64,000 nucleotides of DNA from Mycolicibacterium goodii. Its GTDB lineage: Bacteria > Actinomycetota > Actinomycetes > Mycobacteriales > Mycobacteriaceae. Below are positions 21,191-58,888 of the stretch, piece by piece (positions within the stretch are counted from its first letter, which is position 1; every line of letters starts with the position of its first letter). Both the position numbers and the translations under genes were made by a program. The notes under the pieces are model-generated. The model did not search any database. It worked only from the letters and a program-made list of their open reading frames with translations, and was not told where the DNA came from. The stretch covers positions 2,542,001 to 2,606,000 of the forward strand of contig NZ_CP092364.2 of the NCBI RefSeq assembly GCF_022370755.2, written 5' to 3'.

Positions 21191-21267
21191 GCCCTCGTAT
21201 CCCAACTGGCAGAGGAAACGGATTCAAAACCCGTACAGTGTGAGTTCGAATCTCACCGAGGGCACCA
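21191..21267 (+). tRNA. tRNA-Leu (anticodon CAA) with a short variable loop
   Basis: A complete cloverleaf of 77 nt including CCA. The acceptor stem pairs 21191-21197 with 21257-21263. The T arm is a 5-bp stem with loop TTCGAAT. The anticodon loop is TTCAAAA, so the anticodon at 21225-21227 is CAA, reading UUG. The variable loop is only 5 nt, so this is class I shaped, unlike the usual long-armed tRNA-Leu. The pair at the base of the anticodon loop is A/C. The encoded CCA follows discriminator A. TATGGT at 21156-21161 is a possible -10. Confidence 0.85.
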
Positions 21268-55862: not shown

Positions 55863-56327
55863 ATGACATCTATAGGGACGGGAGACACCGTCGCCGAGTT
55901 CGAACTGCCGGACCAGACCGGCCAGATCCGAAGCTTGACGCGTTTGCTCGGCGACGGTCCCGTTGTGCTGTTCTTCTACCCGGCGGCCATGACCCCGGGA
56001 TGTACCAAAGAGGCCTGCCATTTCCGCGATCTGGCGCAAGAATTCGCCGCAGTCGGAGCGAGTCCCGTCGGGATCAGCACCGATCCGGTCGCCAAACAGG
56101 CCAAGTTCGCCGACATCCAGCGGTTCGACTTCCCGCTGCTCTCCGACGCCGACGGCAAGGTGGCCGCAGGCTTCGGCGTGAAACGGGGCTTGCTCGGCAA
56201 ACTGATGCCGGTCAAGCGGACCACCTTCGTCATCGACACCGACCGCACGGTGCTCGCGGTGATCTCCAGCGAGATCAACATGGACACCCACGCCGACAAG
56301 GCACTCGAGGTGCTCAGGGCGCGCTGA
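55863..56327 (+). CDS. bcp: Peroxiredoxin (Bcp family)
   Basis: Thiol peroxidase that detoxifies hydroperoxides, 154 aa from the ATG at 55863. Peroxidatic Cys47 is in [10 protein letters not shown] and Cys52 follows (CxxxxC), as in atypical 2-Cys Bcp proteins. Motifs VVLFFYPAA and [16 protein letters not shown] are family typical. A TTG at 55854 is a possible earlier start. Convergent with leuA, whose stop lies 14 bp inside its 3' end; divergent from trpE by 62 bp. Confidence 0.93.
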
Positions 56328-58056
56328 CGGCGCCGCACACCGCGGTCAGCGCCGCGTCGATCACCGAATCACCGCGGCCGAAAGCCCAACCGGACCGCTC
56401 GGCCGTCCGGTACTCCAGATAGGCCACCGCCGTGTTGCCGAGTGACTGCTGCGCGAGGCTCAGGACCTCGATCCGACGGCCCAGGTCCTCCAGTGCCTCG
56501 GTCAGCGCGTCGACCGGGTTCGCCCCGGCGCTCCGGAACGTGTGCGTGGCGCCGTCGACGATCAACGTCAGCTCGATGTCCTGGGCGTCGCCGGTGTTCC
56601 CGACGTGCCAGTCCTTGAGCCCGACAGGGCCGTCGGTATGCGAGTAGACCGCCTCGAACAATTCGAACAACTCGGCGGCGGTGACCTCCTCGCCGCTGTC
56701 GTCGGTGTGCGCCTGAACGTGGCGGGCGAAGTCGATCTGCATCCGGCGTGGCAGATCCAGACCGTAGCCGGTCTGCAGCAGATAGGCGATGCCTCCCTTG
56801 CCGCTTTGTGAGTTCACCCTGATCACCGCGTCGTAGGTTCGGCCGATGTCGGCCGGGTCGATCGGCAGATACGGTACGCGCCAGTCGGTTTCGCTTTCCT
56901 TGCGTCGCAGCACCGCCGCGCGTTCGCGATGCTCGACCAGCCCTTTCTTGATGGCGTCCTGGTGTGTCCCCGAGAACGCGGTGTGCACGAGATCCCCGAC
57001 ATACGGATGTCGCTCGTGGATCGGCATACGTGTGCAGTACGAGACCGTGCGGGCGATCTCGTCGATGTCCGAGAAATCGATCATCGGGTCGACGCCTTGG
57101 GCAAGGAGATTCAACGCCAGCGTCGCGATGTCGACATTGCCTGTGCGTTCGCCGTTGCCGAACACACAGCCCTCCACCCGTTGCGCGCCGGCGAGCAGCG
57201 CCAACTCGGCGCACGCGACCCCGGTGCCGCGGTCGTTGTGCGGATGCACCGACAGGATCACGCTGTCGCGTCGCGCGAGGTTGCGGTGCATGTACTCGAT
57301 CTGGTCGGCGTACACGTTGGGCGTTGCGACCTCGACGGTGGCAGGCAGGTTCAGGATGACCGGCCGATCCGGTGCGGCATCCCACAACGTCGTCATGGCG
57401 TCACACAACTCCAGGACGTAGTCGGGTTCGGTGAGGTTGAACACCTCGGGCGAGAACTCGAACCGGACATTGGCCAGATCTGCGGTGAGGTCGAGGATGT
57501 CACGCCCGCCCGCCAGGACCAGTTCACGCAGTTCGTCACGCCCCTTGCCCAGCACGATATCGCGCCAGGTCGGCGCGGTCGCCGTATACATGTGGACCAC
57601 AACGTCGTTGGTGATCCCGCGGATGGATTCGACGGTGCGCTCGATCAGGTCCCGCCGTGCGGGGGTGAACACGACGATGGTGACATCTGCGATGTCGGAT
57701 TCGGCCAGGAGCCGAACGAAGTCGAAGTCCGTCCGGGAGGCCGACGGGTATCCCACCTCGATTTCCTTGTAACCCATGGCAACAAGCAGTTCGAAGAACC
57801 GCCGCTTGCGCGCCGGGTCCATGGGTTCGGCCAGGGCCTGATTGCCGTCACGGAGGTCCACCGGCACCCACAGGGGTGCGGCGGTGATCCTGGCGGTGGG
57901 CCAGGTCCGTTGGGTGAGCGGGACTTCGACGCGGTCGTAGATGCTCGCGTAGCGCTGGAACGGCATCTGGGACGCGCGTTGACGGTTCCACCACGGTGCC
58001 GTCGCGGGAATCGGTCCGGCGGGTGTGCGGACGGTGGGAAAGGCAGTGTCGGTCAT
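56314..58056 (-). CDS. leuA: 2-isopropylmalate synthase (LeuA)
   Basis: First committed enzyme of leucine synthesis, condensing acetyl-CoA with 2-ketoisovalerate, 580 aa. Motifs include [38 protein letters not shown] (metal and acetyl-CoA side), [16 protein letters not shown] and [15 protein letters not shown]. The C-terminal region is the regulatory domain. A leader peptide with three Leu codons and an attenuator precede it (58088-58170). Mycobacteria usually have another leuA near the ask-asd genes, so this may be a second copy. Confidence 0.92.
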
Positions 58057-58087
58057 GGGTGGCGCTTTCGTTCTCGATGTGACGGCC

Positions 58088-58137
58088 GACCGGCATGCGA
58101 AACCCCGCGACGGGGCGCCGGTCGTCGGTCAGGCCCC
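58088..58137 (-). promoter_or_regulatory. Leader-peptide attenuator with alternative hairpins upstream of leuA
   Basis: On the transcript, GGGGC (58137-58133) can pair with GCCCC (58116-58112). The same bases also form CCCCG-TCG-CGGGG-TTT (58115-58100), a terminator-like hairpin; the two pairings exclude each other. An outer stem GACCGGC/GCCGGTC (58123-58117 with 58094-58088) encloses it. A ribosome stalled at the three Leu codons would leave GGGGC free, favouring the antiterminator; completing the peptide would cover it and favour the terminator. Confidence 0.72.
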
Positions 58138-58170
58138 GCCGCGGCGGCGGAGGAGAAGGCTGCGCGTCAT
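58129..58170 (-). CDS. leuL: Leader peptide of leuA (MTRSLLLRRRGGA)
   Basis: 14-codon open frame: ATG at 58170 to TGA at 58131-58129, encoding MTRSLLLRRRGGA. Leu codons 5-7 are CTT, CTC, CTC, so translation depends on charged tRNA-Leu. It has no Shine-Dalgarno; TACAGT lies nine bases before the ATG, so the leader may be leaderless. The frame lies 73 bp before the leuA start and just before the alternative hairpins. Leucine leader peptides before leuA are known in Actinobacteria from comparative genomics. Confidence 0.75.
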   Translation of the reverse strand: MTRSLLLRRRGGA

Positions 58171-58216
58171 GATGGCTAGACTGTACCTCAACTCCTCAGA
58201 CAAGTAGAGAGGTGCC

Positions 58217-58888
58217 ATGGCTCAGCACATCGAGCGCCACCGTCTGGCATCCCAGGCCGCCGACGTGTTACTCGGCAGGATCCAGGCCGGCGAATGGCCT
58301 CTCGGGCACCGCCTTCCCGGGGAATCCACATTGTCCGTCCAACTCGGCGTCGGGCGCTCGACGTTGCGCGAGGCCATCCGGGAACTCGCGGGCAAAGGTG
58401 TTCTGGACAGCAGACAGGGCGCCGGTGTGTTCGTCACCGCGACGGATCCGGCCGAGGACACCGACACCGTGTTGCGCCGGGCTACCATCGCATCCGTCAC
58501 CGAAGCGCGCATCGCCATCGAAGCGGAAGCCGCCGCCCTGGCCGCGACCCGCCGCACCCCTGCCGACCTCCGCACGATCCGGCGTACGCTGACCGCACGT
58601 GGTGTCGACGGCCTGACCATCGCCGAACATGTCGACGCGGACATGGCGTTTCACCGGGCCGTCATCACCGCTGCGCACAACGACGTGCTGACGCAACTGT
58701 TCGATGTCTTCCTGCCCCGGCTGAGGCTGGCGATGATCGACATGCTCAAGATCCGACCGGTGGCATCGAAATCGGAAGACCACGCCGCGCACTGCGAACT
58801 CGCGGATGCGATCACCGCCCGCGATCCCGCGGCCGCCGCGGTGGCCAGCAGGACGCACCTGAGCGCCTTGAAGGAGTCCTTTACGTGA
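58217..58888 (+). CDS. GntR-family regulator, FadR/FCD type
   Basis: 223 aa with an N-terminal winged helix-turn-helix (LASQAADVLLGRIQAGEWPL, LPGESTLSVQLGVGRSTLRE) and an all-helical FCD effector domain with DMAFHRAVITAAHND and conserved HCELADAITARD for metal or acid ligands. It is divergent from the leuA leader and four bases overlap the ABC ATPase gene (GTGA). Target is unknown; it may sense a carboxylate. Confidence 0.9.
   Translation: MAQHIERHRLASQAADVLLGRIQAGEWPLGHRLPGESTLSVQLGVGRSTLREAIRELAGKGVLDSRQGAGVFVTATDPAEDTDTVLRRATIASVTEARIAIEAEAAALAATRRTPADLRTIRRTLTARGVDGLTIAEHVDADMAFHRAVITAAHNDVLTQLFDVFLPRLRLAMIDMLKIRPVASKSEDHAAHCELADAITARDPAAAAVASRTHLSALKESFT

Follow-up and report, generated by a model that had tools for sequence, protein, structure and literature searches.

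The enterobacterial leu operon attenuator (Rfam Leu_leader) works with an intrinsic terminator and with a leader that has its own ribosome-binding site. For actinobacteria, Seliverstov et al. in 2005 named the LEU element, which comprises a leader, a pseudoknot and an alternative hairpin before leuA, and proposed a protein that binds it, with the ML1624 orthologs, which carry a helicase domain, as candidates (PMC1262725). Codon mutants of the S. coelicolor leuA leader, as told in the same paper, showed unclear, non-classical behavior (PMC1262725). In M. tuberculosis, the leuA leader (candidate 1938) has, according to the accessible text of Miotto et al. (2012), a 13-codon ORF with 3 Leu codons and a stem-loop, and gave Northern bands of 85, 65 and 45 nt (PMC3526491). 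S. lividans leuL1 is a leaderless leader, MRFGLLLLSCRGEGL, before leuA, for which transcript data are given and which, in the accessible parts of that report, is said to lack a typical Rho-independent terminator (PMC8079986). In sources available in part, a ribosome-protected uORF before leuA has further been found by ribosome profiling in M. abscessus, and leuA leaders have been named for C. glutamicum and C. diphtheriae. A leader, Leu codons, a stem-loop and short RNAs before leuA are, in other words, already in print for actinobacteria, while the mechanism of the LEU element has been a question since 1999-2005, with ambiguous codon mutants on the one hand and a proposed protein on the other.

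We analyzed a stretch of 64,000 nucleotides from Mycolicibacterium goodii (the window), for which an original prediction had called a Leu leader peptide with an attenuator-like region for leuA. This call was right. The 14-codon frame with three successive Leu codons is present on the minus strand as 13 codons and a stop (Table 1), in the same register as the leaders of other leuA loci, and leuA begins 72 nt downstream of the leader end. Both the TACAGT 9 nt upstream of the ATG and the lack of a Shine-Dalgarno sequence before the window leader ATG were found as predicted, and the leader would, judged by its distance from the promoter, be leaderless or nearly so. Among the curated families of Rfam the leader has no match (one chance-level match, E 0.98), and in the whole window a tRNA at 21191 alone reaches the gathering score; the enterobacterial attenuator, with its terminator and its leader ribosome-binding site, differs from the window locus in this respect as well, and is alike in that ribosome stalling at Leu codons, as we propose below, would be the sensor. 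With the LEU element of 2005, the window copy shares the Leu-run leader, the pseudoknot, the alternative hairpin, the place before leuA and the lack of a classical terminator, but it serves a second leuA beside a GntR gene (PMC1262725). It resembles candidate 1938 in the 13-codon ORF, the 3 Leu codons and the stem-loop, whereas candidate 1938 is the leader of the M. tuberculosis leuA and comes, in the accessible text, without a pseudoknot analysis (PMC3526491). Leaderless start, place before leuA and lack of a typical Rho-independent terminator are likewise shared with S. lividans leuL1, which belongs to another genus and for which the accessible text gives no pseudoknot (PMC8079986).

Table 1. 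Positions of the leader, its predicted helices, the neighboring genes and the related stand-alone protein. Unprefixed positions are those of the window; leader nucleotides count from the A of ATG as 1.
Feature	Position	Strand	Leader nucleotides	Remark
Leader ORF MTRSLLLRRRGGA	58129..58170	minus	UGA 40-42	ATG 58170, TGA 58129; 13 codons and stop
Sensor Leu codons CTT CTC CTC	58150..58158	minus	13-21	codons 5-7
-10-like hexamer TACAGT	58180..58185	minus		consensus match; ends 9 nt before leader ATG
H1 5' strand (CCGCGGCGGGG)	58134..58144	minus	27-37	leader codons 9-13
H1 3' strand (CCCCGTCGCGG)	58105..58115	minus	56-66	
H2 5' strand (CGACCGGC)	58117..58124	minus	47-54	
H2 3' strand (GCCGGTCG)	58087..58094	minus	77-84	
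Inner hairpin CCCCG-TCG-CGGGG	58103..58115	minus		terminator of the original prediction; unsupported as such
Second leuA (2-isopropylmalate synthase)	56314..58056	minus	ATG 115	HMGL-like, IPMS_D2, LeuA_dimer; regulated gene; start at 58056
Imperfect palindrome ACTTGTCTGAGGAGT	58191..58205	minus		candidate GntR operator; 5 nt upstream of -10
Divergent GntR/FCD transcription regulator	58217..58888	plus		
Stand-alone protein, G000 member	L095:2643-3262 (G000:C1)	minus		behind LEU-type leader, Leu-Val-Val (GUA GUA)
Stand-alone protein, relatives	L096-L114, L215-L294			behind LEU-type leaders

For the comparison with relatives, a leuA N-terminal query was used, which matched in 59 of 61 genomes (at two places in G000); 64 of the 66 matches listed were examined, the other two lying near contig ends. 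Sixty-three leuA loci were anchored, L007 being dropped as it is cut by a contig end, and the count of Leu codons was anchored on the H1 motif alone, with the Leu codons left out of the anchor. Three Leu codons stand at codons 5-7 in 59 of the 63 loci, and at least two in 62. The departures are L003 (Leu-Val-Leu), L004 (Phe-Leu-Leu) and L058 (Ala-Leu-Leu), and the 63rd locus, L039, is without an element. L039 is a second leuA copy (in G050), and the translation of the stretch that precedes it resembles, by eye, a carrier-protein domain of a biosynthetic cluster. As judged from the anchored sequences, the placement of the Leu codons is more than chance. Leu occupies 183 of the 186 sensor positions of the 62 leuA leaders, with CUY 165 times, CUG 17 times and CUA once, and the third Leu codon is CUY in 62 of 62, compared with 78% CUG and 15% CUY among the Leu codons of leuA ORFs, and 31% CUY in 7 window ORFs. 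Mycobacterial canonical leuA leaders typically read VQRVLLLGRRDGV, and the script-picked spacing between the Leu codons and the start of leuA spans 95 to 222 nt across loci. The original prediction had regarded a leaderless leader as an unusual combination for an attenuator. However, 59 of 62 leuA leaders have an in-frame start with a -10-like TANNNT 6-9 nt upstream, against 4 of 1867 background RTGs (one leader may offer more than one RTG, while each background site is one RTG); a leaderless-type promoter distance is therefore the rule among leaders and no oddity of the window locus. Of 296 genomes of the class, 284 have a match (E 0.01 or better) to R1, a model built from leuA elements only; 30 loci from this class-wide search (L065-L094) were left out of the analysis.

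The GGGGC/GCCCC pairing and the CCCCG-TCG-CGGGG hairpin of the original prediction are both present as letters. What it overlooked is that GGGGC/GCCCC forms the end of a longer helix of 11 bp, H1, and that a second helix of 8 bp, H2, pairs 58124-58117 with 58094-58087. Both can form in the window, and since they interlock, they would make up a pseudoknot of the kind that Seliverstov et al. reported at leuA. Two marks of a LEU element, a Leu-run ORF upstream of leuA and the pseudoknot helices, can thus both be read in the window. Alignment A1 holds 61 leuA rows, 60 of them distinct (L039, without an element, and L063, with an insertion, were left out). In the 60 distinct rows, 99.4% of the H1 cells and 90.8% of the H2 cells are paired, the outermost H2 pair being unpaired in 29. 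Two-sided changes affect 9 pairs and 44 cells, compared with 14.2 cells in shuffles, and 0 of 500 shuffles reach 44, although the shuffles overstate independence because many A1 rows come from one genus. Every slid version of the pairing was far worse. The H1 5' strand doubles as coding sequence; the 3' strand is non-coding yet covaries. Taken alone, the window leader has ordinary fold stability (z -0.52).

The inner hairpin has a different record. Covariation was not found in CCCCG/CGGGG. Its pairing is equalled or bettered by 348 of 500 shuffles, and 38 of the 60 rows cannot form its outer pair. Within the 8 nt that follow the hairpin, 2 of 61 rows carry at least 5 T and the other 59 fewer; after H2 the count is 5 of 61. 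A terminator pattern scan of the minus strand found none. CCCCG/CGGGG-TTT was rejected as an intrinsic terminator on these grounds (no covariation, T tracts in 2 of 61 rows, empty scan), and with it falls the classical layout that had been claimed. In relatives, where the original prediction had asked for conserved Leu codons and alternate hairpins, the Leu codons proved conserved and the H1 pairing covarying, whereas the terminator hairpin did not hold up. On this covariation, the conserved structure of the leuA leader is the predicted H1/H2 pseudoknot instead of a terminator hairpin. A classical attenuator has end-product codons in the leader peptide, which this locus has, and an intrinsic terminator with a U-tract before the gene, of which it shows no sign. 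That the CCCCG/CGGGG hairpin with its TTT nevertheless terminates, with GGGGC:GCCCC as antiterminator, would agree with the presence of both pairings in the window and with the short M. tuberculosis leader RNAs, which their authors, in the accessible text, call attenuator-like; in view of the hairpin results, and of the lack of a terminator stated in the available part of the S. lividans leuL1 report, we hold this to be very improbable. An intrinsic terminator is, as an output, unlikely.

We consider it likely that the window element is a LEU element, that is, a leader that sets the expression of the second leuA by leucine supply. Read from the letters, the locus combines a conserved Leu leader, a promoter-like box at leaderless distance and covarying H1 and H2 with no sign of an intrinsic terminator. 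Transcription would start at or near the leader ATG, and the ribosome would initiate on the leaderless ORF. Under scarce Leu-tRNA, it would stall at codons 5-7, directly before H1, and therefore most of H1 and all of H2 could form. Counted from the first P-site base, a ribosome covers about 15 further nt; if it stalled while codons 5-7 occupied the A site, 6 to 11 bp of H1 would stay free. With ample leucine, the ribosome would reach the UGA just past the H1 5' strand, where it would cover this strand and most of the H2 5' strand until release, so that the pseudoknot would be delayed. Starvation would thus favor the pseudoknot and sufficiency delay it, and the fold would be signaled to leuA, whose start codon lies 30 nt after H2, via translation initiation or Rho, and not via a terminator hairpin with a U tract. 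Since the sensor codons are mostly CUY, a single Leu-tRNA species is probably what is sensed, although CUY could instead be kept for RNA pairing.

Regarding the output, the minimum free energy fold of the window leader pairs UUCUC with GAGAA, the Leu codons with the Shine-Dalgarno region; the Shine-Dalgarno-like GAAAG before the window leuA is weak. Such a base stem would explain a translational output. Across rows it got no support: pairing of the Leu codons with the leuA Shine-Dalgarno was unspecific in 25 rows (own pairs -10.5, crossed -10.0, permutation p 0.18), and 6 of 62 rows fell in the best 5% of recodings. The base stem described for the LEU element in 2005 (PMC1262725) thus goes unsupported in these rows, and we neither adopt nor reject it. 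A sub-case of the ribosome-read leader has Rho-dependent termination as its sole output, with the RNA shielded or exposed through leader translation. The absence of an intrinsic terminator sign fits this, as do Rho-dependent termination and a small upstream ORF reported, in a source available in part, for another M. tuberculosis leader; exposure alone would, however, hardly explain a pseudoknot, and we regard a Rho-only output as rather unlikely.

In 30 of the 37 genomes of the genus, R1 also hit a weaker, additional site that is not at leuA (E 0.01 or better). Twenty of these orphan elements were fetched, and a small ORF lies downstream in 19; L105, which runs into a contig end, is not part of alignment A3. 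The orphan leader, in nearly the same register as the leuA leader, reads Leu-Val-Val (e.g., VPRRLVVATRSGV). H1 and H2 have 100% of their cells paired, and a third helix, H3, can cover the Val codons (87.9% of cells, two pairs with two-sided changes). In a larger set, the best 80 of 219 orphan loci from the genome collection, in which at least some genomes are those of the genus set, R1 matches 79, the exception being L246, which has no upstream sequence. All 79 loci with upstream sequence among these best 80 of 219 have the H1 motif and a -10-like box at 6-9 nt, and 77 have tandem Val codons, which are GUA GUA in 76; GUA is rare, making up 0.9% of 213 Val codons in 7 window ORFs. In other genera of the family, R1 matched (E 0.001 or better) at 15 of 17 orphan loci, and L151 and L154 are without an R1 match. 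Leaving out these two and L153, a weak match, in-frame tandem Val was found in 32 of 34 orphan leaders, with L140 and L143 using another frame with Leu-Val.

A third kind of leader was found at four leuB loci (L125, L133, L134 and L157), where it reads V-L-I-L, V-L-V-I, I-F-V-L or V-L-V-L-I, and where the gene after the leader is in all four a 3-isopropylmalate dehydrogenase, above the curated cut-off. A branched-chain aminotransferase gene (ilvE) comes next in L133 and L134 and, by eye, in L125. At L182 (the L125 locus) and L157, an ORF of about 35 codons lies between leader and leuB and ends like MDRRDQGG or LDRRDNGG. The best 30 leuB loci of 118 genomes gave five R1 matches. Strong ones precede leuB in L182 and L157, a third strong one (L171) belongs to a divergent leuA, and the weak ones lie upstream of leuB (L156, partial) or inside it (L161). 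Judged by these 30 loci, leuB elements look like a minority, and leuB was dropped as a common target. At L123:267-363, a LEU-type element with the leader MAWSVVILRRRDGAR has no adjacent gene identified, and a leuB start lies about 1.6 kb further. When leuA, orphan and leuB rows were pooled (alignment A4, 61 of 99 prepared rows, 38 having been left out to thin near-identical ones), 98.0% of the H1/H2 cells were paired, and two-sided changes numbered 92, where the shuffles gave 31.0 and none of the 500 as many.

These copies bear on the proposal of 2005 that a regulatory protein binds the pseudoknot and that the leader peptide is incidental. A compact, strongly conserved pseudoknot would suit a binding site, and the non-classical behavior of the S. 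coelicolor codon mutants, as far as it is retold in print, supports such a site and stands against a ribosome-read model. Yet at almost one and the same position the codons differ according to the gene that is regulated (Leu; Leu-Val-Val; Val/Leu/Ile), little-used codons are kept, and the pseudoknot stays constant. As the sensor codons change while the pseudoknot stays, ribosome reading is favored over protein binding, which we judge improbable. The natural copies with other sensor codons before other genes amount to an unplanned codon-swap experiment, and the ribosome model is therefore directly testable. That expression would depend on charged tRNA for the sensor codons, as in a classical attenuator, gains indirect support from these target-matched swaps. 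New here are the H1/H2 pseudoknot with Leu-Val-Val codons before a stand-alone protein and that with Val/Leu/Ile codons before leuB. The text of the 2005 paper names only leuA and one transposase gene as carriers of the element and no codon-swapped copies (PMC1262725), and in a literature search whose scope left most subscription journals, figures and supplements outside, we recognized no report of codon-swapped LEU elements or of the stand-alone protein.

This stand-alone protein, encoded behind the orphan leaders, has about 165 residues, and HHalign aligned it with residues 457-575 of the window LeuA at 96.8%. Of 36 stand-alone proteins, 34 match Pfam LeuA_dimer with E 1 or better, the G000 member scoring 19 bits, below the cut-off of 24.9. 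An AlphaFold2 model (pLDDT 88.5) had as its best PDB match the leucine-bound M. tuberculosis LeuA (E 9e-9). Profile comparison and model together assign the LeuA allosteric-domain fold to the protein. Relatives occur in 180 of 201 genomes of the family, although some weak matches may be LeuA C-termini; the strong matches listed are mostly frames of 130-300 residues, with those of G000, G367 and G391 longer. Some matches (e.g., G224:C33:79135-79593) hold one in-frame stop, TGA, TAG or TAA, which may reflect a frame opened ahead of the real start, a pseudogene or an error, and many of the 120 listed members carry the NCBI name "homocitrate synthase". Candidates outside the family were rejected, all class matches at E 1e-6 or better (118 genomes) lying in LeuA-sized frames.

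We tentatively suggest, with slightly less than even confidence, that the pseudoknot is a general scaffold for ribosome-read switches, in which the sensor codons are swapped per gene (Leu-Leu-Leu for leuA; Leu-Val-Val with rare GUA GUA for the stand-alone protein, in most family genomes searched; Val/Leu/Ile for leuB), and that the stand-alone protein would be a so far undescribed partner of LeuA, binding leucine or a ketoacid and tuning the enzyme in trans. If it does so, valine shortage would thereby be wired to leucine synthesis. Within this reading, the domain identity, the codon swap and the shared scaffold are borne out at the level of sequence and model, and the action in trans is a guess. 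The control of branched-chain amino acids in mycobacteria and their relatives may have a further layer in this widespread small protein with its LeuA allosteric fold.

Finally, the window leuA is the second copy of its genome, and the other copy (L031) has its own element. Such second copies, defined by a LeuA match at E 2e-225 or better (the next match being at 1.5e-191), were found in 12 of 249 genomes of the order (L185-L196). R1 matches at 12 of 12 of these loci, in L193 partially, and a divergent GntR gene lies beside the second leuA in all 12. Near the promoter box, at least 14 of the 15 positions of ACTTGTCTGAGGAGT are matched in 10 of the 12 loci, and 12/15 and 11/15 in the other two. 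The palindrome is a candidate operator of the divergent regulator, and the GntR regulator would be a probable second control of the window leuA, acting at the promoter. Second leuA, transcription regulator and RNA element together look like a mobile or often lost cassette.
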